Below are positions 5,147 through 32,647 of a stretch of DNA of 32,897 nt, one piece after another; positions within the stretch are counted from its first letter, which is position 1; each line of letters begins with the position of its first letter. The translations under genes were made by a program, and so were the position numbers. The stretch lies in the NCBI GenBank assembly GCA_938034445.1, contig CALHLD010000027.1, forward strand, positions 1 to 32,897, in the 5' to 3' direction. The stretch comes from an uncultured archaeon. Its GTDB lineage: Archaea; Thermoproteota; Nitrososphaeria; JACIWG01. The notes beneath the pieces are model-generated. The model had not been told where the DNA came from and did no database searches. It saw only the letters and a program-made list of their open reading frames with translations.

Positions 5147-6190
5147 ATGACTGAATTCGGAATCGTTTACGAGAAAGGAGAGGTAAGTGAAGGAGACTTA
5201 AAAAATATTTCATCATTTCTTAATAAGATGGATATTGGATATAGGCTACATCCTGAGAACAGCATTTTATGCAAAAATGGACGTGTTTGCTTTGAAGGCC
5301 TTAAGGTAGATTACATTTTTGTAATTGGTAGTGATAAGATTGTTTTAAAAACTTTACTTGGAATATCGGGTAGGGAAGTACCTATAGTAAGCTTGTATGG
5401 TAGAAAGAGTAGAGGATTTTTTGCAATAGCAGGAATAGACAGCTTTCCTGAAGTGGTCAGAGAAATTGTTTCAGGCAACTACATGTTAGAGGAAAGGATG
5501 AGGTTATGTGCAAAAGTTGGTGATATTGAATTACCTTCAGCATTAAATGAGCTTGCAATATTTTCTAAAGAAAGTGGAAGCATTATAAGGCACACTCTCT
5601 CTATAGGTAATGAGATTGTTTGGAGAGATGTGTCAGACGGTGTTATAGTTGCTACACCAACAGGCTCTACTGCATATGCACTTTCAGCAGGCGGCCCGAT
5701 TGTTAAAGATGCTGATGTCTTCGTCATAGTTTCGGTCAATAGTCTTGTACCAACCCACAAGCCAATTGTTACATCATCGGATAAAATAATATACATAGGA
5801 GACTTACTAAAGAATGAGAATATTATAGTAATTGATGGGCAAGTGAGAAGAACAATAGATTCTGATACAGTAACAGTTTACAAGTCAAAGTATAAGGCAA
5901 AGTTCTTGAAGATTAATATGGAAAATATTATCGACCTAGACACCAGACTTTCAAAGAGAGTGAACATTAAAAGATTGTATTCATCATTGGAAGGTTTGCC
6001 TCCAAGTGCTAAGCTGGTGTACAAGATTCTAGAGTATGAAGGGCCATTGAATAGAATTGAGTTGATAAATAGGACAGGGTTACCGTCTCGAACTGTTGAT
6101 TACGCTTTAAACCTTTTAGTAAGTAAGGGTGTTGTCGTTAGAAAACAAGTGGATAAGGATGCAAGAATGACTATATATGCGATTTTATAG
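5147..6190 (+). CDS. NAD kinase-like protein fused to a C-terminal winged helix
   Basis: A 347-residue protein. Residues about 1-275 follow the NAD kinase (PpnK) fold: ALNELAIF (132-139) is the NE motif, and ATPTGSTAYALSAGGPI (169-185) is the hallmark nucleotide-binding loop. The usual GGDGT motif is replaced by GSDKI (61-65), keeping only the Asp, and the GRLGFL segment reads GRKSRGFF. Residues about 283-347 form a winged helix-turn-helix resembling MarR/TrmB domains (AKLVYKILEYEGPLNRIELI, TGLPSRTVDYALNLL). NAD kinases phosphorylate NAD to NADP with ATP or polyphosphate. The altered motif plus DNA-binding domain suggest either an unusual kinase or a pyridine-nucleotide-sensing regulator; the sequence does not decide between them. 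ATG 5147 is the first start in the frame. Confidence 0.8.
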   Translation: MTEFGIVYEKGEVSEGDLKNISSFLNKMDIGYRLHPENSILCKNGRVCFEGLKVDYIFVIGSDKIVLKTLLGISGREVPIVSLYGRKSRGFFAIAGIDSFPEVVREIVSGNYMLEERMRLCAKVGDIELPSALNELAIFSKESGSIIRHTLSIGNEIVWRDVSDGVIVATPTGSTAYALSAGGPIVKDADVFVIVSVNSLVPTHKPIVTSSDKIIYIGDLLKNENIIVIDGQVRRTIDSDTVTVYKSKYKAKFLKINMENIIDLDTRLSKRVNIKRLYSSLEGLPPSAKLVYKILEYEGPLNRIELINRTGLPSRTVDYALNLLVSKGVVVRKQVDKDARMTIYAIL

Positions 6191-6208: not shown

Positions 6209-7519
6209 TTAGGATTCAGAAATTTCTTCCAAAGACTTCCCCATAGTTTCTATACCCAATATTAGAGTAGATAGGCCAGCGAAAATGTGAACAAGAGAGA
6301 ATACTGTGAATGGGCCGACAAGGCCTATTGTAGCAAACAGGTATCCTGTTATGGATGGAGCAAATATGCCCATAAGCCTTCCAAAACTTGCAGCTGCACC
6401 TGAGCCTGTACCTCTTATTTCTGTAGGATAGAGTTCTGGAGTGTAAGCGTACAGTCCAGCCCATGCACCGAGGTTAAAGAATGAGATTATTGAGCTCCAT
6501 AAGAAAATCCATGCTATATCAATTTTTAGGCTTAAAAGTGCAGACGCTATACCCGCTAAAATAAGGTAAACTATTAGGACCTTCCTTCGTCCTATTTTAT
6601 CAAGTAGATAGGATGCCGAATAGTAGCCCGGTATCTGGAATAGTGTAACAATTAGTGTCCACCATATGGATGTGACGTCTGTAAGATTAAATTGTTTTGA
6701 GTAAATGCTTGGAAGCCAAAGAAAGATTCCATGATATGTGTAAACTAGTGAACCCCATAAAATAAATAGTAGCATGGTACGTTTAAGATACTTTGTTGAC
6801 ATAAGATCCCTTACACTATACTTTTTTACCTTAATTTCTTCGATTTTAAAATTATTGACAGTAGATGATATTCCAGTTTTTTCTAAAATCCTTTTTATTT
6901 TTTCGATATCTCCTTTTTTGAGTAGATATCTTATGCTTTCAGGAAAAGATATTATAACAAAAGGTATTAGTGCTAAGGGAATAATTGCTGTAAAGAAAGC
7001 TATTCTCCAACCATAAGTTGGTAAAATTAGGTATGGGATTAGAAGAGATAATATTGCACCATAAACCCAAGCTGTTTCAACCAGTCCTAAAAATAAGCCT
7101 CTATACTTAACAGGAATATATTCTGAGACATATACTCCAGGTTGCGGCAGGGCACCGCCCAATCCTATTCCAGCAATAAATCTTAGGATAAATAGGGTAC
7201 CAAGGTCTTGTGATAGGCCACATAATGCTGTAAAAACAGCTTCTAGAAGTAGAACAATAACTAGAACCTTTTTCCGCCCTATAATATCAGCGAGCCTACC
7301 GAATCCAAGAGCGCCAATAAACATTCCAATGTAGCCTGTGCTCAGCAAATATCCTATTGTAACCACATTTAGAGACCATTCTTTGGCAATAGGGGTAACA
7401 AGCGCGGCTATAAGCATAACATCCATTCCAGTCAAACCATAAATTAGTGAAGATAATACAAGTATTTTGTAGTGGAAACTGTTTAATGAGGCATTATCTA
7501 GAACATTATATATGCTCAT
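6209..7519 (-). CDS. MFS transporter, sugar/aromatic-acid porter type
   Basis: A 436-residue membrane protein with about twelve hydrophobic helices. The loop 2-3 signature GRLADIIGRKKVL and its second-half counterpart SYLLDKIGRRKVL are both present, as are the YVSEYIPVKYRG and PELYPTEIRGTG segments typical of sugar and organic-acid/proton symporters, and the PESIRYLLKKGDIEKIKRIL linker after helix 6. The start is ATG 7519 with GTG 7522 as an alternative; a TATA box lies 18-25 bases upstream. It is divergent from the luxE-like operon across a 230-base regulatory region with palindromes, so I infer it may import the acid that operon consumes. It ends 18 bases from the stop of the NAD kinase-like gene. 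Confidence 0.85.
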   Translation of the reverse strand: MSIYNVLDNASLNSFHYKILVLSSLIYGLTGMDVMLIAALVTPIAKEWSLNVVTIGYLLSTGYIGMFIGALGFGRLADIIGRKKVLVIVLLLEAVFTALCGLSQDLGTLFILRFIAGIGLGGALPQPGVYVSEYIPVKYRGLFLGLVETAWVYGAILSLLIPYLILPTYGWRIAFFTAIIPLALIPFVIISFPESIRYLLKKGDIEKIKRILEKTGISSTVNNFKIEEIKVKKYSVRDLMSTKYLKRTMLLFILWGSLVYTYHGIFLWLPSIYSKQFNLTDVTSIWWTLIVTLFQIPGYYSASYLLDKIGRRKVLIVYLILAGIASALLSLKIDIAWIFLWSSIISFFNLGAWAGLYAYTPELYPTEIRGTGSGAAASFGRLMGIFAPSITGYLFATIGLVGPFTVFSLVHIFAGLSTLILGIETMGKSLEEISES

Positions 7520-7536
7520 CACTTCACAGCCACAAG

Positions 7537-7555: not shown

Positions 7556-7603
7556 TTTTGCAAAATTTGCTTATAAAATACTATTTTAAGCAAAATTTGC
7601 TTA
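7556..7603. promoter_or_regulatory. Pair of palindromic operator-like sites
   Basis: TAAGCAAAATTTGCTTA at 7587-7603 is a perfect 8+1+8 palindrome. A second copy at 7556-7573 shares GCAAAATTTGCTTA exactly and has a weaker left arm (TTTGCAAA). The shared cores begin at 7560 and 7590, 30 bases apart, about three helical turns, so two dimers would sit on the same DNA face. They lie just upstream of the MFS TATA box and about 120 bases from the luxE-like TATA box. A third inverted repeat, TATAAACATTTATA, is at 7610-7623. No candidate regulator is adjacent other than the winged-helix NAD kinase-like gene. Confidence 0.6.
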
Positions 7604-7751: not shown

Positions 7752-9020
7752 ATGTTCAAAATGAATGCCAAAGAAATTTTTGAAAAAGCATCGAAAAGCA
7801 GGCTCTTAAACAATTCATACGTAGAAAAGGTCTGGAATCTGATTGGAGATAGAAGCCTATTTCAAAAGTCACCGGACTATCTAAGAAGTTTAAGAAAAAG
7901 TCTATTTAGAGATGCCCTAAAATTCTTTTCAGAAAACAGCGAATACTATGCAAACCTTTTTGAAAGACTAAACATTAACTCAAGAAATGCAGAATTAGAG
8001 GACTTAGCGAAACTTGCAATACCATCTGATATATTAAGAGGAGATGGCCACAAACAATTTCTTATAAAAAGTGTTGATGGGGATGGCGAGTATTTTATGT
8101 CAAGTGGTACAACAAATAATGTGCCAGTAAAAATATACAGGAGTCCACTAGATTTGGCGATAATGATAAAGGCAAATACAGACCTCTTTGAATACGTTTA
8201 CGGAGACTATCTTGAACCAGGTAAAGGGTTAGCACTTTTTATGGCAGCCCCAGAACTTAGATACAGATTAAATTTCGTAGCATTCGTACACTTGGCTTTA
8301 GAGGCTAAAAATATACCCCTCTTATATGGAATGAATCTTGTAGAAGGTTCAGCCAGTGGACCAGCTTGGCAGAAGCTAGTGCCAAATAAGGATAATATTG
8401 CAAAGTTTTTAAGAAGCAAGGAGGAGCCTAAACTTTTCTTCACGGCACCAGCGGGTATATTCCTACTTTCAAAACAATTTGAAGAACTCAATTTTATAAA
8501 AAAGCTGATGTATAGGATTGCCTCAGTTTTACCTGTCCAACTGGGTAGAGGGGGGATTGTTGTAACTGGAGGGGGAACAAAAGGTTTCACAAACCTGCCA
8601 CCCTATAATGAGATTGTTGAATTTTCGAGAAAGTATTTTAAGGCGAAGGATAAGAGTGGGAAAGAGGTTTCAACACCTTTTATGGACGTTTTAGGGATGA
8701 CAGAAACTTTGACAGCTATGCTGGATAGGTTTGGTGTAATGGATAAGGTGCCTCATCCACTTTCTGAAGTATTTCTTCTTGATCCAAAAACATTCGAGTG
8801 GAAGAATGAGGATAATGTGGAGGGTATTGTTGGAATATACAATCCTTTCACAACGTCTTGGCTTGAAGTATTCTATCCAGGAGACCTAATGATTTCCCAT
8901 CCATCTGACAGATTTTATGGTAAAGAATTTGTTTACGTTAGAAGACTAAAGGTTGAGGAAGGGTGGGAGCTTCAAAGAGCATGTGGTGGAACTTTAGAAG
9001 AGCTTATGGGTAGAAGTTGA
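7752..9020 (+). CDS. luxE: LuxE-like acyl-protein synthetase (carboxylate-activating)
   Basis: A 422-residue adenylate-forming enzyme of the LuxE acyl-protein synthetase family (bacterial members about 370). It is expected to activate a carboxylic acid with ATP and hold the acyl group on a C-terminal cysteine before passing it to the reductase. The ATP-binding loop is YFMSSGTTNNVPVKIYR (115-130), VVTGGGTKG is near 270-278 and DVLGMTET is at 312-319. The only cysteine of the whole protein is Cys411 in RACGGT, exactly where LuxE carries its acyl-accepting Cys. The next gene starts directly after its stop, so the pair is translationally coupled. Some resemblance to phenylacetate-CoA ligases exists, but the C-terminal Cys and LuxC neighbour favour LuxE. 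Confidence 0.85.
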   Translation: MFKMNAKEIFEKASKSRLLNNSYVEKVWNLIGDRSLFQKSPDYLRSLRKSLFRDALKFFSENSEYYANLFERLNINSRNAELEDLAKLAIPSDILRGDGHKQFLIKSVDGDGEYFMSSGTTNNVPVKIYRSPLDLAIMIKANTDLFEYVYGDYLEPGKGLALFMAAPELRYRLNFVAFVHLALEAKNIPLLYGMNLVEGSASGPAWQKLVPNKDNIAKFLRSKEEPKLFFTAPAGIFLLSKQFEELNFIKKLMYRIASVLPVQLGRGGIVVTGGGTKGFTNLPPYNEIVEFSRKYFKAKDKSGKEVSTPFMDVLGMTETLTAMLDRFGVMDKVPHPLSEVFLLDPKTFEWKNEDNVEGIVGIYNPFTTSWLEVFYPGDLMISHPSDRFYGKEFVYVRRLKVEEGWELQRACGGTLEELMGRS

Positions 9021-10478
9021 TTGGAGCAGGAAATTAAACCCTTTCCTTTTCTAGAAGATTTAGATGTTATAGAAAAGGATGTTGACGGGTATAGGATATT
9101 TGAGGTAAGTGAATCATATTTTAGAAGAAATTTTCCTAAATTCAAAGAAGTTCAAGATGAGCTTTCATCAACACCAATTTTCGATAGAATAGAAGTTCTG
9201 AGTAAAGTTGGCCAAGTTTGGGATAGTAAGCTTCAGCATGGACGATTTGATGAACTTAAAGAGAAGCTGGTAAAGTCTACAGGATATAGTGAGAATCTGA
9301 TAGATTTAGAATTTTCTTTTATACCAATTTTATTTGATAAGGACAACATACGAAGAAATATCGAATTTTCTTTCAAAAATATAGAAGGATTATATAAGTT
9401 TGTTGAAGTTGACGAAGGAGAATATTATAGGTATGTTCCCTCGGGACCAACATTTATTATAAGTTCAGGAAACTCGCTCATACCGCCACTAATACCAACA
9501 GTATTGTCTCTTGTTACCGGAAACATGACTATCTTAAAGCCTTCTCTAACAAACTATTTTGGAGTTGTAAAAGTTCTCGAAATTTTGAAGGAAGTTCCTG
9601 GGAACTCTAATGTTGCTGAAAGGATGTTAAATGCTATATTAGTAAGCTACTTCACCCATGATAGTCCAGTATTAAGGTACCTGCTTAAAGAGGGGAAGAT
9701 TGGAGTAGTAAACTTTTGGGGAGGGGAACCTGCACGTACTGAAGTTGGAAAACTGGTTTATGAAAACCTTAACCATCCAAGATTTTTAGTAAACGGCCCC
9801 TTAACAGGAGTGGCTGTTGTTGATGAGGAGTCAGCTGACGATGAAACAGCGTGGGGACTTGCATATAATATAATATTGTATGATCAGCAGCTTTGTAGCT
9901 CACCTACTTCAACAATTTTTATTGGATCATTTGAGAAGGTTTTAGATTTTGCTTCAAAGGTTGCAGGACATTTGGATGAAATTGGAGGAGAATATAGAAT
10001 TTCGTTAAGTGAAAGTGAAAATATAATATTGCATGGTGTGAGAAGAAGTTTACAGTTGAATGGTGCAAATGTCTTTTATTCAAAAAATTTGGATAACCCG
10101 TGGACAATTTTAGTGTCTAAGGAAGGAAATGAACTAGATAATGTGATAAAATACTTTCCACAGTATAATATATATCATAGAAAAAGGTTTATTGAGATAA
10201 AAGTGGTCGATAAAATGGAAAAAGCTTTCAGTGAAATTGAAAAGATTCCATTAAGGGAGGCTTTTAGGGGTGTAGATAGGGTTCAGACAATAGGTTTAGC
10301 TGTCTCTCAAAAAAATTTAGAAAATGTTTTAGAGAAGTTTGTAAGAACTGGAGTGTACAGGATTGTTCCTTTAGCTGACATGTTTATGAGAAGCGCTATA
10401 GAACCATATGATGGAACTATTTTGGCTTCAGCATTTACTAACACAATATATTATAGAAACAAAAACTTGTGGAAGTGA
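9021..10478 (+). CDS. luxC: LuxC-like acyl reductase (acyl-CoA/acyl-protein reductase)
   Basis: A 485-residue member of the LuxC acyl-CoA reductase family, itself an aldehyde dehydrogenase relative that reduces an acyl thioester to aldehyde with NADPH. Seen: VPSGPTFIISSGNS (139-152), TGNMTILKPS (166-175, the cofactor-binding region), NFWGGEPARTEVGK (231-244), YDQQLCSSPTS (287-297) with Cys292 as the catalytic nucleophile, and a C-terminal EPYDGTILASA like LuxC's PHDG segment. Cys292 is the sole cysteine. The start is TTG at 9021, immediately after the luxE-like stop; no better start is near. It ends 4 bases before the SDR gene. No LuxD, LuxA or LuxB occurs, so the function is aldehyde or alcohol formation, not light. 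Confidence 0.85.
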   Translation: MEQEIKPFPFLEDLDVIEKDVDGYRIFEVSESYFRRNFPKFKEVQDELSSTPIFDRIEVLSKVGQVWDSKLQHGRFDELKEKLVKSTGYSENLIDLEFSFIPILFDKDNIRRNIEFSFKNIEGLYKFVEVDEGEYYRYVPSGPTFIISSGNSLIPPLIPTVLSLVTGNMTILKPSLTNYFGVVKVLEILKEVPGNSNVAERMLNAILVSYFTHDSPVLRYLLKEGKIGVVNFWGGEPARTEVGKLVYENLNHPRFLVNGPLTGVAVVDEESADDETAWGLAYNIILYDQQLCSSPTSTIFIGSFEKVLDFASKVAGHLDEIGGEYRISLSESENIILHGVRRSLQLNGANVFYSKNLDNPWTILVSKEGNELDNVIKYFPQYNIYHRKRFIEIKVVDKMEKAFSEIEKIPLREAFRGVDRVQTIGLAVSQKNLENVLEKFVRTGVYRIVPLADMFMRSAIEPYDGTILASAFTNTIYYRNKNLWK

Positions 10479-22658: not shown

Positions 22659-24122
22659 TCATCTATTTACACTATTCAAGTATTCACCGTAGTAGCATAG
22701 AGCATACATGGCATAGGCAGCTTCTTCTGGAGAGGCGTAAGCAGGTATACCAAACTTTTCAAACTTTCTTCTTACATATAAAGCCATTTCTGTTTCACCA
22801 ATGTCACATACAACTATAGGCTTCTCTCTAGAAGAAGCTATTAAGGCAACTCTATCAACATAATCTTCTTGAAGACCAGGAACATGATGCAAGCCAAGCA
22901 AGATTATCCCATCAACCTTTTTATCATGATAAACAATTTCAGTAACCTTTACAATCATATCTGATGTCACAGAGCCGGTTAAATCGATGGGGTTTGATAA
23001 GGAAGCAAACTTTGGAATTTGCCCACTTTCACGCATAATTTCCAGTTTTCTAAAACTTTCTTCTGAAAGGCCTTCAATTTTTAATCCCCTGAGCTCACAT
23101 TCGTCAGCAACCATAATACCGGGTCCACCAGCATCAGTTATAATACAAATATTTCTTCCTCTAGCAGGAGGCTGCATTGAGAGAGCCTTACCCATGTTAA
23201 AAAATTCATTCATATTCTGTGCTCTAATAATACCAGTCTGTAAGAAAGCTGCATTATACACTTCATCTGAACCAGCAATTGATGCTGTATGAGACAATGC
23301 AGCCTTTGCACCAGCCTTTGTTTTACCAGTTTTAAGTACAATTATAGGTTTCACTCTACTCACGTTCTTTGCTGTTTCAACAAATTTATTTCCATCTCTT
23401 ACAGATTCGATGTACATTAAAATCACCTTTGTCCTTTCATCATGTAAAAAGTAGTTTAGAAGATCTGATTCGTCCAAGTCTACTCTATTTCCAAAGCTTA
23501 CAAATTTGCTTATACCGAGCTGTCTTCCAGCTAAATAGTCTAATGCGGCAACACCGAAGGCACCACTTTGTGTTACTACAGCAATTGAACCCTCTTTTGG
23601 ACGGGGTGTTGCAATAACCTCTTCACCTGAAATAAGGGTTTTTGTTACGGGTAGAAAGAGTGTATCTACACCTGATGTTGGGTCGTAAACGCCTAAACAG
23701 TTTGGGCCCAGAACTCTTATATTTCCTTCAACAGCTATACGTTTGACTTCATTTTCAAGTTCACGGTTTCCTACTTCACTAAACCCGCTAGAAATTATTA
23801 TTGCAGCCTTAGCATACTTTTCTTTAGCCTCCATCATAACCTGTGGCACAGACGCTGCTGGAACAACAATAACAACCAACTCGATTTCATTTACTGGAAG
23901 TTTGCTTATGGAGGGAAAACATTTGTAGCCTAAAATCGATTCTTCTCTAGGATTAATTGGATAAAGTTCACCTTTAAACAGACCCGTACGCTTATTTTCT
24001 ACAAAGTTTTTGAAGATAACATGCCCAGCTTTGTCAACATGCTTAGATGCACCTACAACTACAACAGAGGATGGTTCAAAAAACGGCCTTATCTGTTCAA
24101 TGATTCTACTATTCTTCAACAA
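22659..24122 (-). CDS. ADP-forming acyl-CoA synthetase, alpha-type subunit
   Basis: A 487-residue protein with the CoA-binding and two ligase-CoA domains of NDP-forming acetyl/acyl-CoA synthetases, which make ATP from acyl-CoA in archaea. Seen: FFEPSSVVVVGASKHVDKAG (14-33), YPINPRE, RVLGPNCLGVYDP (136-148), VVTQSGAFGVAALDY (182-196), SFGNRVDLDESDLL and KAALSHTASIAGSD, where His278 is the phosphorylated residue. The ATP-grasp (beta) part is not fused and not in the neighbouring genes, so it must be encoded elsewhere. The start is TTG 24122; no ATG occurs near the N terminus. Acetate, branched-chain or aryl acids are all possible substrates. Confidence 0.87.
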   Translation of the reverse strand: MLKNSRIIEQIRPFFEPSSVVVVGASKHVDKAGHVIFKNFVENKRTGLFKGELYPINPREESILGYKCFPSISKLPVNEIELVVIVVPAASVPQVMMEAKEKYAKAAIIISSGFSEVGNRELENEVKRIAVEGNIRVLGPNCLGVYDPTSGVDTLFLPVTKTLISGEEVIATPRPKEGSIAVVTQSGAFGVAALDYLAGRQLGISKFVSFGNRVDLDESDLLNYFLHDERTKVILMYIESVRDGNKFVETAKNVSRVKPIIVLKTGKTKAGAKAALSHTASIAGSDEVYNAAFLQTGIIRAQNMNEFFNMGKALSMQPPARGRNICIITDAGGPGIMVADECELRGLKIEGLSEESFRKLEIMRESGQIPKFASLSNPIDLTGSVTSDMIVKVTEIVYHDKKVDGIILLGLHHVPGLQEDYVDRVALIASSREKPIVVCDIGETEMALYVRRKFEKFGIPAYASPEEAAYAMYALCYYGEYLNSVNR

Positions 24123-24231
24123 AAGAATAATATTAATACTAACTTAAAATGTTTTCTGTAGGTTACAGGAATTTAATAAAAAGGCAAAAATTGCTATAAA
24201 ATTTTAGGGGAATACAAATCTAAAGTATTTT

Positions 24232-25496: not shown

Positions 25497-27647
25497 TTAA
25501 AGAACACCGGTTACACTAACGATTGTTGGAAAATATGTTTCAACAAACATGCGATAGTACATGTTAGGTTCATCGTATCCATTACCATCATAGGCCCATA
25601 CTCCAGCAAACCATGAGATCACAGTATTCTTTCTTATTGTCATAGTGCCGCTAGTATCAAATCTTTGAGCAAGACAATCTATAACCCTCCTAGCATAGTC
25701 AGCTGAAGTCCATATCCACATTTCATAGCGGTTACCTGGAATAAGTGATTTAATGCTGTCAACGTAGCCCTTGCTTGGAAGAACAGCTTCACCAAAGCCT
25801 CTATAGTTGTATTGAGCGTACCAGTAGAGAAAGTTTTGATCCCTATCATGGGTAGCATGTGAAGAAGAGTATGTTCCAAAATGAACTGAAAGATCAGTCC
25901 TTTGATGAGCCCAATGGGATATTCTATCTGGAGAGGAAACGTCGCCGCTTGTGCCAGAAATCATTGTTAGATAACTGTAATATCGTCCATCCGTATGGTC
26001 TCTTAACCAGACTATATCATTATATAGTTGCCAATATTTTGTCTTATATGGTATTAAGGCTATTTCTGTATGCTTGAATGGCCCTGGATCGTCATAGTAT
26101 TCTCTGTAACCATTTTCGTACTCGACACGATATGTTCTGCTTGTGTCCCTATATGCTACAGCCCTTATTGGGCCGACTAGAACAGTCCAGTTTCCTGCTG
26201 GAAGTATGTGCGGTATCCAATATCCGCCTGGTACACGAATATAGCCGATGCCGTTCATTGAATATTCGACATGATAGTTTTTGTAGTACATGGAGAATGT
26301 CCAGTCTATTGCGAAGCTGAAGCCTTCATTTGGTATAAGCCTTAACTTGTATCTTTGATTATCTATGTCAACATATATGCCAGTACTATTCATTCTTACA
26401 AGATATGATGGTGGTGGTGCGTCAGCGTCCCAAAGCCATTCTACCCTAACCTTCTGCTGATAGACACCTGGGTTAGAAAAGTTGAGTAGGAAGACAAGCT
26501 TGTCTCCTACAGAAAATCTTCTTCTCCACTCAGCAAACTGTAAAGTTGGAACAAGATAGTTTGAAGTCCATACTTCGACTTGGCTTGGAATTTCTTTAAG
26601 GTTTGGATCGTTTGGCCCGTTTGTTGTACTATATACTCTAAATTGTTTAACTGGAGGCATAGGTATAGGAGGATATGTGCCTGAGAATGCAAGTTGCCTA
26701 TTAAACCACAAAATTGTCCCATTCAATATTATTTCTAGTGCGTAAACTTCTTCAGGCTTAGGTACATTTGGATAGAATTGGTTTATTGCATTTTCTTGTA
26801 TCACATACTCTATAGCCGTATAAGTATACGACTCTACTATTATTCCCCTATTGTCTACTGCCCAAACAATAATGCACCTGTTATAGGGTTCATCAATGAT
26901 TCTATTGTTTACTGATTTAAAGTATATTGTATAGTTTCCACCACCATTATTTAATAACGTTACTATCTTTGCATTTTCCCACTTTGAAGTGGATTTTTCA
27001 AAGTACGCTATTTTAAAATTGTTTACTGACAAGTCTTCAACAGGCTCACCATACTCTCTGTTTAAAGTGATAGTAACCTTTGTACCAAGCTGGTTATCAT
27101 TTTCTATAGAGTCCAAATGCACAGTCATGTTCAATAGTATAAGCATTTGCCCACTCCAACCGTAGAAACCGCTTCCCGGCACATTTAGGCTAAAGTTTGC
27201 TGAAATTGCTGAAATACTCTGTGGAGAATACCAGTATAGTTTTGCTAGATCATAAACATATCTTTCAGGTACTCTAAGCCTGCCGAATAGGAGTTTCTCA
27301 GGTTGAAGTAGAACCTTATTGAATGTGAAGTTTATCTGTATGCCTCTTGCAGAAAATGTTCTTATTGCAGTTTTCATCCACAACGTGAACCTTTCAAATG
27401 CATTATATCTTGGAATATCCATTTCAGCTGTAGCATTATATTCTTGCGTCATGTGTGCAAGAATATATTTTAGGGCACGTCTAAAGTCTTCGTTAAAGTT
27501 GTCAACAACTTCCTTAACCTCCTCATACCTTAAATTCTGGTAAGATGTTGAAGTAACATGTACTGTTATAGCGACATAGAATATTAGCAACGTTAATATT
27601 ACTCCTGCAAAAATTAGCAGCTGACCCCTCCTTTTCCTACAAACCAT
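25497..27647 (-). CDS. Very large pilin-like exterior protein
   Basis: A 716-residue protein whose N terminus looks like a class III (prepilin) signal: CRKRRG followed by QLLIFAGVILTLLIFYVAIT. The rest is beta-rich, aromatic, low in Lys and extracellular in character, with many N-x-S/T sites (for example NATAEM, NFTFN, NMTVHL, GNWTVL). No enzyme motif is recognised. ATG 27647 comes one base after the stop of the upstream pilin-like gene, with GGGGTTG as ribosome site; TTG 27656 in frame would overlap by 8 bases. At several times normal pilin size it may be a tip adhesin or minor pilin. Confidence 0.65.
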   Translation of the reverse strand: MVCRKRRGQLLIFAGVILTLLIFYVAITVHVTSTSYQNLRYEEVKEVVDNFNEDFRRALKYILAHMTQEYNATAEMDIPRYNAFERFTLWMKTAIRTFSARGIQINFTFNKVLLQPEKLLFGRLRVPERYVYDLAKLYWYSPQSISAISANFSLNVPGSGFYGWSGQMLILLNMTVHLDSIENDNQLGTKVTITLNREYGEPVEDLSVNNFKIAYFEKSTSKWENAKIVTLLNNGGGNYTIYFKSVNNRIIDEPYNRCIIVWAVDNRGIIVESYTYTAIEYVIQENAINQFYPNVPKPEEVYALEIILNGTILWFNRQLAFSGTYPPIPMPPVKQFRVYSTTNGPNDPNLKEIPSQVEVWTSNYLVPTLQFAEWRRRFSVGDKLVFLLNFSNPGVYQQKVRVEWLWDADAPPPSYLVRMNSTGIYVDIDNQRYKLRLIPNEGFSFAIDWTFSMYYKNYHVEYSMNGIGYIRVPGGYWIPHILPAGNWTVLVGPIRAVAYRDTSRTYRVEYENGYREYYDDPGPFKHTEIALIPYKTKYWQLYNDIVWLRDHTDGRYYSYLTMISGTSGDVSSPDRISHWAHQRTDLSVHFGTYSSSHATHDRDQNFLYWYAQYNYRGFGEAVLPSKGYVDSIKSLIPGNRYEMWIWTSADYARRVIDCLAQRFDTSGTMTIRKNTVISWFAGVWAYDGNGYDEPNMYYRMFVETYFPTIVSVTGVL

Positions 27648-27648
27648 A

Positions 27649-28152
27649 TTAAGCAACCCCCAAAAGAGCTAACTTCATTTCAACCACTATAACCTTCATC
27701 CATCTTGTAGTGTAAACGTACGATATTTGAACATTTTCTCCAGCCTTCAAAAACACTGCCTCATTAGCTTTCCCAAACTCGTCAACTGCATTCGATATTA
27801 CATCATTGTTTAAGGGGACAAGCTCTACAAAACCAAGCTCGTTTAAAGTAGCATTGTATATTGAAATGTTAAATATTATGTTATGTGGTATAAGAGAGTT
27901 TATTACAACCTTAAACTGTTGCTCCCATCCTTCTTTGACAGAGCCACTTGAATCGAATATTAGCCTGTCAAAACCTTGGTTGGCGGCAAGAGATGAGAGT
28001 AGATTGTATCCGAATTTTTTAAGGTCCTCACTTGCCCTCTGATGTGGAGTGTTGGGTGGTAGAGTAAGGTAATAGCTTATAGTAAATGCGGCTAGAATAA
28101 GTAGTGCTGAGACAACTGACTCTATAATTCTAGAAATACCTTTTTTACTCAT
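27649..28152 (-). CDS. Pilin-like protein with class III signal peptide
   Basis: A 167-residue protein. MSKKG then ISRIIESVVSALLILAAFTI is a typical archaeal prepilin leader: basic residues, Gly at the cleavage point and a hydrophobic helix with Glu at position +6 or so of the mature part. It would be cut by a PibD/EppA-type peptidase and assembled by the TadC platform. It overlaps the upstream gene by 4 bases (ATGA) and adjoins the giant pilin-like gene. Confidence 0.7.
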   Translation of the reverse strand: MSKKGISRIIESVVSALLILAAFTISYYLTLPPNTPHQRASEDLKKFGYNLLSSLAANQGFDRLIFDSSGSVKEGWEQQFKVVINSLIPHNIIFNISIYNATLNELGFVELVPLNNDVISNAVDEFGKANEAVFLKAGENVQISYVYTTRWMKVIVVEMKLALLGVA

Positions 28153-29336
28153 TCACTCATCCTCCATAGAGTTAATTCAGCATAATAGGAGTTTGTTCCA
28201 ATTCTAACAATACGTGATAAAGTTACTGTGTTTATTCCAGCACTTTCTAGTCCTAAGGACATGTAGTCGACAGCAACTGGTGTTCTTGGTCTTGACGCAA
28301 ACACTATGCCCCACTTACCCTGCTTCTTAACAAGTAATCCAACAAATATTACATCCTGTGAGGGTTCATTTTCCAGTTCATAAACTCTATAATTTTTACC
28401 ACCATAGTTAACTACTTTTCCAACTTCACCACTTGTTACATCTATTGCAGGATTTAGTATGATGTTTAAGCTTGATGTTAGCTCAAAGGCTGTAAGTTCA
28501 AGATGATGCGCGCCCCTTGCAATATCTTCAACCTGTGTAAAGTTTGCTATAAGATATTTGCCTTCAATAGCTAACCCTAATGTTGGTATAGTATTAGCTA
28601 CAAAAGATTGTTGAGATTGTAGACCATAATAGTTAACTGTGACCACAAGACAGTATGCGTATTCTGAGATACCTCGTGGAACCTGTGGCATATTGTTTTT
28701 AAAATCTAGCATTGTTTGCCCCCTCCAGTCTGTCATATTATATATTGTAACATAGCTGTAGTCAAAGTACTGAACATTTCCCTGTTTCGCAACATATATT
28801 GCAATGTATGTTCCCTTTACTTCAGCGTTTGGTGCATTCTTGCCCATAAAATTTTTTACATTTATTTTGAACTTTTCTGTAGGAGATTTTGTGTCAGCCT
28901 TTTCTATAGTTATATTTAATGCAGTCTTCAAATAGAATCTAAAACCATACTTCCAGTAACCCTTTTCTACATCATATAGTCCAGTTAGAGCACCGAAGGT
29001 TGTCGTGTTAATGTAAAGTGGATTTATTATTTCGCTCGCCCCAGAAAACATTCGCATAACCTTGTCAACGTCTAAATCGTACATTTTACCATGCTGAAAT
29101 GCGAGACCAAAGTCTTTTAGGCTAGTGTTGTTTACGTAAATGTTTGAACCCCAATCTTCAGGAAAACCTCTTGTTAGAAGTATTTTATCAAAAAGTCTGC
29201 TTGCGACTACGTCAAGCTGCTCTTCTTCAACAAGCTGCAACTGATTAGAGGATAGTGTTGTTACAGAATAGTATGTGTAGCCTAGCATCAGAATCGATAT
29301 CAATATTGCTACAATGTACTCGTAGGTTGGACTCAT
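28149..29336 (-). CDS. Pilin-like exterior protein with N-terminal helix
   Basis: A 395-residue protein. One N-terminal helix (YEYIVAILISILMLGYTYYS), then a mostly beta-rich exterior. The leader lacks the basic-Gly cleavage site of its neighbours, so it may stay anchored or be an uncleaved pseudopilin. NTS, NIT and NMT sequons are seen. It starts one base before the end of the upstream gene (TAATG) and overlaps the next by 4, placing it firmly in the pilus operon. Family not recognised beyond this. Confidence 0.65.
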   Translation of the reverse strand: MSPTYEYIVAILISILMLGYTYYSVTTLSSNQLQLVEEEQLDVVASRLFDKILLTRGFPEDWGSNIYVNNTSLKDFGLAFQHGKMYDLDVDKVMRMFSGASEIINPLYINTTTFGALTGLYDVEKGYWKYGFRFYLKTALNITIEKADTKSPTEKFKINVKNFMGKNAPNAEVKGTYIAIYVAKQGNVQYFDYSYVTIYNMTDWRGQTMLDFKNNMPQVPRGISEYAYCLVVTVNYYGLQSQQSFVANTIPTLGLAIEGKYLIANFTQVEDIARGAHHLELTAFELTSSLNIILNPAIDVTSGEVGKVVNYGGKNYRVYELENEPSQDVIFVGLLVKKQGKWGIVFASRPRTPVAVDYMSLGLESAGINTVTLSRIVRIGTNSYYAELTLWRMSE

Positions 29337-29854
29337 TAGCCTTTCACCTCAAGCCTTCCAATGCCGACTTGAAACAAGCCTGTGTCCGGGTTGAGTCTAC
29401 ACCATACAACAGGCTTAGAGACGCCACTATATAGGATACCATCATAGTAGATTACACCATTCCCTACATCGAAGCTGCCTGAAGATTTAGCAACTTCAAC
29501 ACCGAACCTAAAATTGAGCCTTGACTCTACCTTAAAAACCTCATATCCGTAAACATATGATACAACCTTCCATCCTAAAGAATCGTTTTCTAGCCTAATA
29601 ATGTATCCCCTATTGTTAACGTGAACAGGAATATCAATGACCCTATATATGTATGGACTCTTATGCTCAAGATAAAATAAGTTCAGCATGTCCATAATTT
29701 CTGAAGAAACTCTCTCACATACTTCTTGAAGATAGATTTTTGAAGATTTAAAGCCGGTATCCATTACTGTAAGAAAAGAGAAGAATGCTACAGCAGAAAG
29801 TAGTATAACTAAAATGAGAGTTCCAATCAAATGTGACATAGTCGTACTCGACAT
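29336..29854 (-). CDS. Small pilin-like protein
   Basis: A 172-residue protein with an N-terminal helix (HLIGTLILVILLSAVAFFSF), a helical spine continuing to about residue 60 (SSKIYLQEVCERVSSEIMDM) and a beta-rich C-terminal half, the layout of type IV pilin subunits. A cleavage Gly with basic residues is not evident. It lies 3 bases after the upstream pilin and overlaps the next gene by one base. Confidence 0.65.
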   Translation of the reverse strand: MSSTTMSHLIGTLILVILLSAVAFFSFLTVMDTGFKSSKIYLQEVCERVSSEIMDMLNLFYLEHKSPYIYRVIDIPVHVNNRGYIIRLENDSLGWKVVSYVYGYEVFKVESRLNFRFGVEVAKSSGSFDVGNGVIYYDGILYSGVSKPVVWCRLNPDTGLFQVGIGRLEVKG

Positions 29855-29857
29855 ATC

Positions 29858-30736
29858 TCATCCACCAAAATATGAGATTTCAACATTAGACTGTACTAGC
29901 ATAATAATAGTGTCTCTTGGAAGATAGTGTGTGCCATTAGAATAGAAGCTTGGCAAACTTATTTCTAAAAATCCATTTGGACCTGCAGAAAACCTAACCC
30001 TATAAGTTGGATTCAATGGACCAGCATCAGCTGGAGCAGACATTCTATAGTATGAGGTTTCCAAGCTCCTACATTTTGCTACAACATAAATGTTTCCGCT
30101 TCCAGAAAATGTTCCTGGCAAGAGGTTAATATAGTTCACTTGCAAAATATTCACCAGCTCGAAAATCGGTAACCCCGTAGTAGCGCTTATTCCTTTACTA
30201 AAGTTGAAGGTTCCAAGGTTAAGCACATTAACTCTAGAATAGTCTATCACAATCCAGGCACCATCACTTTGCTCTACATAAACACATCCCATAGAAGCAT
30301 TATTGTTAAAAAGTATTGGCACTTCTGTTCCTCTTATCAAATATTTTCCAGCCGCAGATGCCAGTGAACCACCACGATATTTTAGCTGGCTACATTGTAC
30401 TGAAAGTAGGTTAATGGAATCGTAAGGTAATGTTCCACTTAATGTTTCTACTGATAAAGTTAAAGTTTTAGCGTCCCTCACAAATGATGGGCCTCCAGTC
30501 CTAGAATTAAATTTGACATACCCAGAAGAACCCTGTTTTGTTGAAACATGCTCGATTACTTCTGCAAGGTTTGTCATAATATTTTTTGCCTGATCGAATT
30601 CAGTGCTTTCACTCTGTATTGCGAACATGTTGTTTGCAAAGCCCATAGCGATTAAAGCAATGCTTAACATTATACCAGTTAAAATAACACTTGTTACTAT
30701 CTCAGATAAACCCTTTTCTTTTCTAATTTTACGCAT
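29858..30736 (-). CDS. Pilin/archaellin-like protein with class III signal peptide
   Basis: A 292-residue protein whose leader is textbook: MRKIRKEKG, cleavage, LSEIVTSVILTGIMLSIALI. The helix runs on as GFANNMFAIQSESTEFDQAK, followed by a Gly/Ser/Asn-rich beta domain of the kind that packs on the pilus exterior. It begins 63 bases after the TadC gene, on the same strand, and is the first pilin of the operon. Confidence 0.75.
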   Translation of the reverse strand: MRKIRKEKGLSEIVTSVILTGIMLSIALIAMGFANNMFAIQSESTEFDQAKNIMTNLAEVIEHVSTKQGSSGYVKFNSRTGGPSFVRDAKTLTLSVETLSGTLPYDSINLLSVQCSQLKYRGGSLASAAGKYLIRGTEVPILFNNNASMGCVYVEQSDGAWIVIDYSRVNVLNLGTFNFSKGISATTGLPIFELVNILQVNYINLLPGTFSGSGNIYVVAKCRSLETSYYRMSAPADAGPLNPTYRVRFSAGPNGFLEISLPSFYSNGTHYLPRDTIIMLVQSNVEISYFGG

Positions 30737-30799
30737 ACCTTTAACCCTTCAACATTATTGAATATGATTATTGGGAAATTTAAAGGTTTCCCTTTTTAG

Positions 30800-32647
30800 C
30801 TATGTGGAAACTATCTGAAGCGAGCCCATGAAGATTGGAGCCAGATACAGTGAGATGAGTGAAATTATTGCTAGAACAAACGAGTGTTTGAAGCCAGCGC
30901 TAACCCTTTCACCCGAAACCTTTCCTGCAACAAGGCCCATAAACACTGTATTAAATATTATTGGTGGCACAAAGACTTTAACGAAATCTCCAAAACCAAA
31001 TGCTGCAGAAAACTGTTGGAATATGCTTCTTGCAAAGAATAGTATTGTTATCGTTGAAATTAGTAGGATTAGACCTCCAATATATGGTAGTAGCAGTAGA
31101 GGCCTGAGACTTGACCTCTTCTCCTTCTCTATCGACATTATTGATTCACTGAATGATGCTAGGCTTTCAAGTGTTTCAGGAGTGCCTCCACCAACATCAA
31201 TAGAGTCTATAAGAAGAAACATTGTCATAAGGTTAAGCCATCCATGGAGTCTCCTTCTAAGGTCTGCTAGAACCTTTCTAAAGGATATGCCCCAGCTTAT
31301 CTCATTAGACATAAGTCTCAAAATTTTTGAGAACTCGCCATATTCTCTTTTTGCAAGGTAAAAGATACATTTTTCAGGACTAATACCAGTCTTCCTTATT
31401 TCAACAAGGTCTCTTAGAAAGTTTGTTATACCAAGGGTTATAAGACTATTTTCTCTAGAATATTTTATGTCCATAATCATTCCAGGCAAAAATGTTACCA
31501 TCATAACAACACAAATGCCGATGGCGGGCTCAAAACCGTAGTCTAAACCCAAAATTTGCCTAAACCATATTATGAAGGTGTAAAAGGGTTCAAGAGGGCG
31601 AAATTCTCCAAAATTAACAAAGGGCATAGGCAGGTAGAATGCTAGAACCATTGGTATAGCAAGAAGGAATGTGAAGGGTAATGTTGCAAAAAACCACTTA
31701 TATGCCCTATAGTCTGAGATAGGATATTTTGGTGCAGTAATATCTATCATGTACAGGAAAACACCAGAAACAACTGGTAGAAAAATGTATGAGAAAATTA
31801 CAAACGTTTCCATGCTAAAAAGTCCACCGCCTCCACCCATACCAGTAGGCATAATTTTTGTCACAATAAACATAACATATAATGCTAAAGCAAGCAAAAT
31901 TGCGACAGTAATGTATGATTCCATAAGCAACGCCATCCTTTCACCAATAATCTTAATCTTAGTCTTCCTGTTCTCGAACATGATTTCAGTACGTTTCAAA
32001 AGATAGTGTTCAGTGTCGCCACCAACCCTTAAAGTTGAAGCATATCCTAAAACAAACTCCTTATAGTCCTTACTTGGAACATGCTTAGCACTCTCCTCCA
32101 GAGCAGTGACAGGGTCAATGCCTCTAGCCCTAGTGTCAACGTAAACGAGTTTAGCAGCCTGACCAAGCTGTGGAAGAAACTCAAGATCCTTAAGCTTCTC
32201 GAAAGCCTTAAAAGGAGAAATGCCACCAGAAGCTAATACACTAACGTATGCGGCTGCAAAAGGAACTTCAGTATCGAGTATTGAGGCACGGTTTGATGCA
32301 GCAAGATTAGGGTATATGAGGAAAAGTACGAGAACAAGTGGTGGTACAGCTATAAGTGTAAGCATTATTGGATTCAATAAAAAGAAGCCTAATAGGGCTA
32401 TTGGTAAAAATATGGCGAGAGAAAAGAAAGTCGCAAAACCGCACATTGAGAGATAGGTTTCTGGATGAATTCGAATGTTTGCAGCCTCCAATATTACAGG
32501 AATATTTTTAAAAATTTTAAGCATCCTACGACCAAACCAGCTAAAATATGCGTAAGATAAGCTTGTGAAAGTAAGCTTAGGCCTATAAGCCTTTTTACCC
32601 TTAACCTGAACCTTAACCTTAGCCATACTATAATATTTTTTAAGCAT
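30800..32647 (-). CDS. tadC: TadC/FlaJ-like pilus assembly membrane platform
   Basis: A 615-residue integral membrane protein with two T2SSF (GspF) domains, the archaeal FlaJ/TadC duplication. First domain about 125-250: ASILDTEVPFAAAYVSVLAS, GISPFKAFEKL, and later a four-helix group. Second domain about 405-520: LGITNFLRDLVEIRKTGISP, SWGISFRKVLADL, IDVGGGTPETLESLASF. Hydrophobic helices occur near 70-120, 245-265, 280-300, 315-340 and at the C-terminal end. It forms the inner-membrane core around which pilins are pulled from the membrane by an ATPase, which is not in the window. It leads the minus-strand pilin operon and is divergent from a further pilin gene. ATG 32647 is taken; ATG at 32626 (MAKVKV) is an alternative. 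Confidence 0.85.
   Translation of the reverse strand: MLKKYYSMAKVKVQVKGKKAYRPKLTFTSLSYAYFSWFGRRMLKIFKNIPVILEAANIRIHPETYLSMCGFATFFSLAIFLPIALLGFFLLNPIMLTLIAVPPLVLVLFLIYPNLAASNRASILDTEVPFAAAYVSVLASGGISPFKAFEKLKDLEFLPQLGQAAKLVYVDTRARGIDPVTALEESAKHVPSKDYKEFVLGYASTLRVGGDTEHYLLKRTEIMFENRKTKIKIIGERMALLMESYITVAILLALALYVMFIVTKIMPTGMGGGGGLFSMETFVIFSYIFLPVVSGVFLYMIDITAPKYPISDYRAYKWFFATLPFTFLLAIPMVLAFYLPMPFVNFGEFRPLEPFYTFIIWFRQILGLDYGFEPAIGICVVMMVTFLPGMIMDIKYSRENSLITLGITNFLRDLVEIRKTGISPEKCIFYLAKREYGEFSKILRLMSNEISWGISFRKVLADLRRRLHGWLNLMTMFLLIDSIDVGGGTPETLESLASFSESIMSIEKEKRSSLRPLLLLPYIGGLILLISTITILFFARSIFQQFSAAFGFGDFVKVFVPPIIFNTVFMGLVAGKVSGERVSAGFKHSFVLAIISLISLYLAPIFMGSLQIVST

Follow-up and report, generated by a model that had tools for sequence, protein, structure and literature searches.

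In this work, we analyzed a 32,897-nucleotide stretch of DNA from an uncultured archaeon of the phylum Thermoproteota (the window) and specifically its gene P0001, which encodes a protein with a degenerate NAD-kinase fold followed by a winged helix. The open reading frame is real and begins with ATG; its counterpart in a sister genome is 86% identical, and full-length orthologues occur throughout the phylum. The features on which the analysis rests are the following (window coordinates):

5147..6190, + strand: predicted regulator gene P0001, 347 aa, degenerate NAD-kinase fold plus C-terminal winged helix (ORF, Pfam, AlphaFold, PDB matches)
5327..5341, + strand: GSDKI, aa 61-65, in place of the GGDGT phosphate-donor loop, with Asp63 conserved and Gly-Thr missing
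5546..5551, + strand: NE, aa 134-135, a motif of the NAD site that is retained, with N invariant and E or D after it (alignment; PMC8553519)
5654..5698, + strand: TPTGSTAYALSAGGP, aa 170-184, conserved region II, retained (alignment)
6002..6184, + strand: winged helix, aa 286-346, with the candidate recognition helix at aa 314-326 (AlphaFold, profile matches)
6209..7522, - strand: MFS transporter gene, 437 aa, best matched by the aromatic acid/H+ symport family; its product is predicted to be a niacin importer under control of the regulator
7559..7571, no strand assigned: candidate operator copy 1, TGCAAAATTTGCT, upstream of the MFS gene, core at 7560-7570 (exact match)
7572..7577, - strand: TATA-like hexamer TTTATA between the operator copies (sequence match; the region is AT-rich and holds other such hexamers)
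7589..7601, no strand assigned: candidate operator copy 2, AGCAAAATTTGCT, 30 bp from copy 1, core at 7590-7600 (exact match)

The NAD-kinase-like domain and its winged helix

Pfam matched NAD_kinase_C (PF20143) to aa 133-255 of P0001 (5.9e-23) and did not detect PF01513, the N-terminal half that carries GGDGT. The NCBIfam NAD kinase models cover aa 43-269 with values of up to 2.8e-40, all of them below cut-off, and members of the family are thus easily mis-annotated as NAD kinases. The AlphaFold model, computed from an alignment of 47 sequences, has the NAD-kinase fold (mean pLDDT of 89), with a low-confidence stretch at aa 262-273, where the helix that links it to the winged helix begins; when the model was compared with the PDB by Foldseek, NAD kinases were present in all 50 best matches listed. 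No Nudix, NMN adenylyltransferase or ribosylnicotinamide kinase domain was detected in P0001 with Pfam and NCBIfam, the only matches of note being NAD_kinase_C and HTH.

GGDG, NE/D and conserved region II are the hallmarks of NAD kinases, and GGDGT is found in 124 of 127 archaeal NAD kinases (PMC8553519). The P0001 family keeps the last two and lacks the first: GGDG[TS] occurs in none of its 47 aligned sequences versus 79 of the 83 canonical kinases gathered. The first-pass annotation had read TPTGSTAYALSAGGP as intact, GGDGT as changed to GSDKI and the GRLGF region as altered, and all three readings agree with P0001 and the alignment, the last region being GRKSRGF. Its description of the catalytic motif as degenerate applies to the Gly-Thr pair but not to the Asp, as D63 is kept in 47/47 sequences. 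The residue that follows is Arg or Lys in 39/47, and Ser62 is not common to the family, the sister genome reading GGDK. The remaining invariant positions (47/47, P0001 numbering) are G61, N134, D161, D164, G165, P171, G173, S174, S180, G182, G183, N198, D230, G231 and R234.

At the C-terminal end, where a winged helix had been noted from the sequence, the AlphaFold model has helices at aa 286-298, 303-310 and 314-326 and strands at 330-334 and 342-346, with pLDDT of about 84-96 per block. A family profile over this part matches solved HTH regulators, and the Pfam HTH matches of P0001 as a single sequence stay below cut-off; the protein is thus predicted to have a DNA-binding domain. The winged helix is present in all 46 aligned orthologues, which form one clade with P0001, and a chance fusion is therefore ruled out.

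Full-length orthologues bearing the winged helix were found in more than 100 of 398 Thermoproteota genomes and, outside this phylum, in one Thorarchaeote and on one contig binned as Thermoplasmatota. When the last 65 residues were left out, the tree separated fusion proteins from canonical kinases (SH-aLRT 99), the fusion clade spanning Thermoproteota and the Thorarchaeote. Families f3 and f10 are taken to be ammonia-oxidising lineages, judged by the close named loci L036-L039.

A second, canonical NAD kinase, which the first-pass annotation had proposed to look for, is indeed encoded in the genome of the window (GGDGT, G000:C24:84991-85587), separate from P0001, which is thus not its only NAD kinase. 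Each near-complete genome listed likewise encodes a kinase of this kind besides the fusion protein, its open frame spanning about 250-300 aa. The genome's own canonical enzyme (L002, 1015-1845, - strand) reads GSKGVL in the GRLGF region, unusual in an otherwise canonical kinase, and a third NAD-kinase-like protein of about 400 aa (G000:C46:21620-22717) is AcoX/ATP-NAD kinase-like, with GGDGT intact.

Neighbouring genes and a candidate operator

In 10 of the 46 orthologue loci (L145, L150, L151, L159, L160, L161, L163, L164, L169 and, in the Thorarchaeote, L034), the divergent neighbour is the quinolinate synthase gene nadA, followed by nadC in seven and by the aspartate dehydrogenase gene nadX in five. 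This arrangement, often as nadA-nadC-nadX, is found in at least five archaeal families and in the Thorarchaeote; gene identities were checked with curated models at representative loci, for nadA including that of the Thorarchaeote.

In the window and its f1 and f2 relatives, P0001 is instead convergent with an MFS transporter gene, the aromatic acid/H+ symport match of the window's protein being below the curated cut-off. In L147 and L148, the regulator gene is divergent from a related MFS gene, 53% identical in the former and 43% in the latter, and regulator-adjacent MFS genes, 43-90% identical, occur in f1, f2, f39 and f53 genomes. NadA was not found in the MFS-adjacent regulator carriers that were scored, the genome of the window included. 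In this 95%-complete assembly, neither NadA nor a true NadC was found, and the sole QRPTase-family match is a 412-aa nicotinate phosphoribosyltransferase (467 bits against a cut-off of 243); the organism therefore probably lives on salvaged niacin, and niacin is the presumed substrate of the MFS transporter.

Many orthologues have no NAD genes beside them, for example those of Nitrosopumilaceae (next to CTP synthase), f32 and part of f39. For the CTP synthase, tryptophan genes and pfkB-type kinase found near the Nitrosopumilaceae orthologues, synteny within the clade seems a sufficient explanation, and they were set aside as targets. At L154 and L155 (f29, NadA not found), the neighbours of the regulator gene encode a molybdopterin-binding oxidoreductase subunit and a permease of the APC type, which may point to another target in niacin or pyridine uptake or metabolism. 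At L181, L183 and L153, isochorismatase-family genes lie within two genes of the regulator; this family includes nicotinamidases. Elsewhere in the window, a LuxC-type acyl-CoA reductase gene (9021-10478, + strand) lies directly 3' of a 422-aa ORF that has no Pfam match and by eye is LuxE-type acyl-protein synthetase-like, the pair (7752-10478) being kept in the sister genome, and genes for membrane and secreted proteins at 25497-32647 (- strand) follow one another in what resembles a type IV pilus/archaellum-like assembly cluster.

In genomes that carry the regulator, the region upstream of nadA contains an inverted repeat, GGCAA-N3-TTGCC, even when nadA and the regulator gene lie far apart. 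This candidate operator, GGCAANNNTTGCC, was first spotted by reading intergenic regions and afterwards tested statistically on the 250 bp upstream of nadA in 20 regulator carriers and 25 genomes without a detected regulator, with expectations obtained from shuffles. The exact core GCAANNNTTGC was present in 11/20 carriers (0.15 expected) versus 0/25 non-carriers (0.13 expected) and, with at most one mismatch, in 18/20 carriers (2.3 expected) versus 2/25 non-carriers (2.2 expected). The corresponding Fisher values, 1.7e-5 and 3.5e-8, ignore kinship, so that related rows overstate the number of independent events, and they compare carriers and non-carriers that differ in lineage and are phylogenetically unmatched. 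The motif ranked first of 3,328 four-base inverted repeats (256 half sites, spacers of 0-12), and was also first for held-out nadA genes not beside the regulator (6/11 versus 0/25). L199 and L203 have no site with at most one mismatch upstream of nadA, and no clear site is seen in the window in the promoter of P0001 itself.

The two exact copies upstream of the window's MFS gene, for which the chance expectation from the genome site density is about 5e-6, are both kept in the sister genome (L173); they flank the TATA-like box, one on its upstream side and the other between it and the start codon. Related MFS genes have an exact copy in L170, L009 and L148 and a one-mismatch copy in L147. The candidate operator is thus conserved upstream of NAD synthesis or uptake genes and limited to regulator carriers. 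In Nitrosopumilaceae, the bare motif, counted genome-wide, often occurs by chance; a lone site there carries little weight by itself, and the reversed-pattern control is unfair in this family because of base-composition differences. Two more exact GCAAAATTTGC sites in the genome of the window (C8, C51) were discarded, as each falls within an ORF whose function is unrelated. The window has a third exact core match, GGCAAAAATTGCT (24184-24194), some 60 bp 5' of a gene (22659-24122, - strand) for an acyl-CoA synthetase (ADP-forming)-like protein; as the genome density predicts about 0.9 site per window, this match may be due to chance.

Proposed function and alternative explanations

Taken together, we consider it likely that P0001 and its orthologues are NAD(P)-sensing repressors of NAD synthesis or niacin uptake, with a single origin from an archaeal NAD kinase. 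The first-pass annotation had suggested either a kinase-derived transcription factor that senses NAD(P) or a NAD kinase that controls transcription directly, and the former is well supported by the separate kinase, the loss of the donor loop, the gene context and the shared operator, with NAD(P) as the presumed ligand. The kinase fold would retain the dinucleotide site and, as the GGDGT donor loop is lost, would bind NAD(P) without phosphorylating it, while the winged helices of a putative dimer would grip the palindrome. When NAD(P) is plentiful, the liganded regulator would sit on the operators in the promoter regions and block nadA(-nadC-nadX) or, in organisms without de novo synthesis such as that of the window, the niacin-type MFS importer; when NAD(P) drops, it would leave them. 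One may speculate that the adenosine ribose is held, together with a 2'-phosphate, by the conserved Asp and the Arg/Lys that follows it, in which case the regulator would read NADP rather than NAD.

Several alternatives have to be weighed against this proposal. Sequence does not reveal the direction of control, and an activator of the same genes would be consistent with the window site upstream of the TATA-like box; we regard this as unlikely, given that the other site has the position typical of repression and that NadR, NiaR and NrtR, which regulate NAD metabolism in bacteria, all act by repression. The sensed ligand might also be adenylate charge or a precursor (nicotinate, nicotinate mononucleotide or quinolinate) instead of NAD(P), as nicotinic acid is the effector of the functionally analogous NiaR (PMC6800001) and the regulator is linked to a putative niacin transporter in NadA-lacking genomes. 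The kept residues, however, are those of a dinucleotide site spanning both kinase domains, and there is in our view only a small chance that such a signal is the one read. Quite unlikely, too, is an active NAD kinase, perhaps with another phosphate donor, that also represses NAD genes in the manner of the trifunctional NadR: D63, the NE/D motif, TPTGSTAY and D230-G231 are kept, and NadR and the prototypic NrtR are bifunctional (PMC6800001), but the donor-phosphate loop is lost family-wide (GGDG[TS] absent in 47/47), Arg or Lys replaces a loop glycine in most members (39/47), and a canonical kinase coexists in the genome. The direct control of transcription by a NAD kinase, as first suggested, is accordingly the less likely of the two early readings. 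Finally, an ordinary NAD kinase with a drifting motif, an otherwise employed winged helix and a coincidental neighbourhood and palindrome would account for the high overall similarity to the NAD kinase fold, but it is highly improbable and already strongly disfavoured by the conservation of the fusion in one clade, the recurrence of the nadA/MFS context and the operator statistics with their negative control.

Relation to known NAD regulators

The proposed repressor resembles NAD kinases (NadK/PpnK; PF01513 and PF20143) in its fold, NE/D, TPxGSTAY and DG motifs and the Asp at the GGD position, and differs from them in the absence of GGDG[TS], the extra winged helix, the canonical kinase encoded alongside and the links to NAD-synthesis genes. 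The known regulators of NAD synthesis, NadR, NiaR and NrtR, are all bacterial (PMC6800001), and none of them has a NAD kinase ligand domain. The NadR of Enterobacteriaceae likewise joins a DNA-binding domain to a NAD-metabolic kinase fold, controls NAD synthesis and salvage and is NAD-liganded (PMC6800001), whereas its repressor domain is N-terminal and its enzymatic parts are NMN adenylyltransferase and ribosylnicotinamide kinase, with no NAD kinase fold. NrtR, the Nudix-related regulator, also combines an enzyme-derived ligand domain with a DNA-binding domain and can be divergent from nadABC with the operator in between (PMC6800001), but its Nudix ligand domain is unrelated to that of P0001. 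NiaR likewise controls niacin transport and nad genes (PMC5343564, PMC7713382); it has another fold, responds to niacin and is bacterial. A search of an open-access library gave no paper on archaeal NAD regulators or on NADK-HTH fusions. Enzyme-derived NAD regulators are an already known idea, and one derived from a NAD kinase appears to be unreported.

It is possible, if somewhat doubtful, that these proteins form an ancient regulator class, shared with at least one Asgard archaeon, which arose by one fusion, either ahead of the expansion of Thermoproteota or in its early phase, and in which the Arg/Lys reads the 2'-phosphate of NADP(H). If true, the proposed NAD(P)-sensing repressor would clearly exemplify how a metabolic kinase, deprived of its donor site, is turned into a sensor of its own pathway. 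With the candidate regulon and operator at hand, it is directly testable, and it would fill a gap in archaeal NAD regulation across a major phylum, including the ammonia-oxidising archaea.
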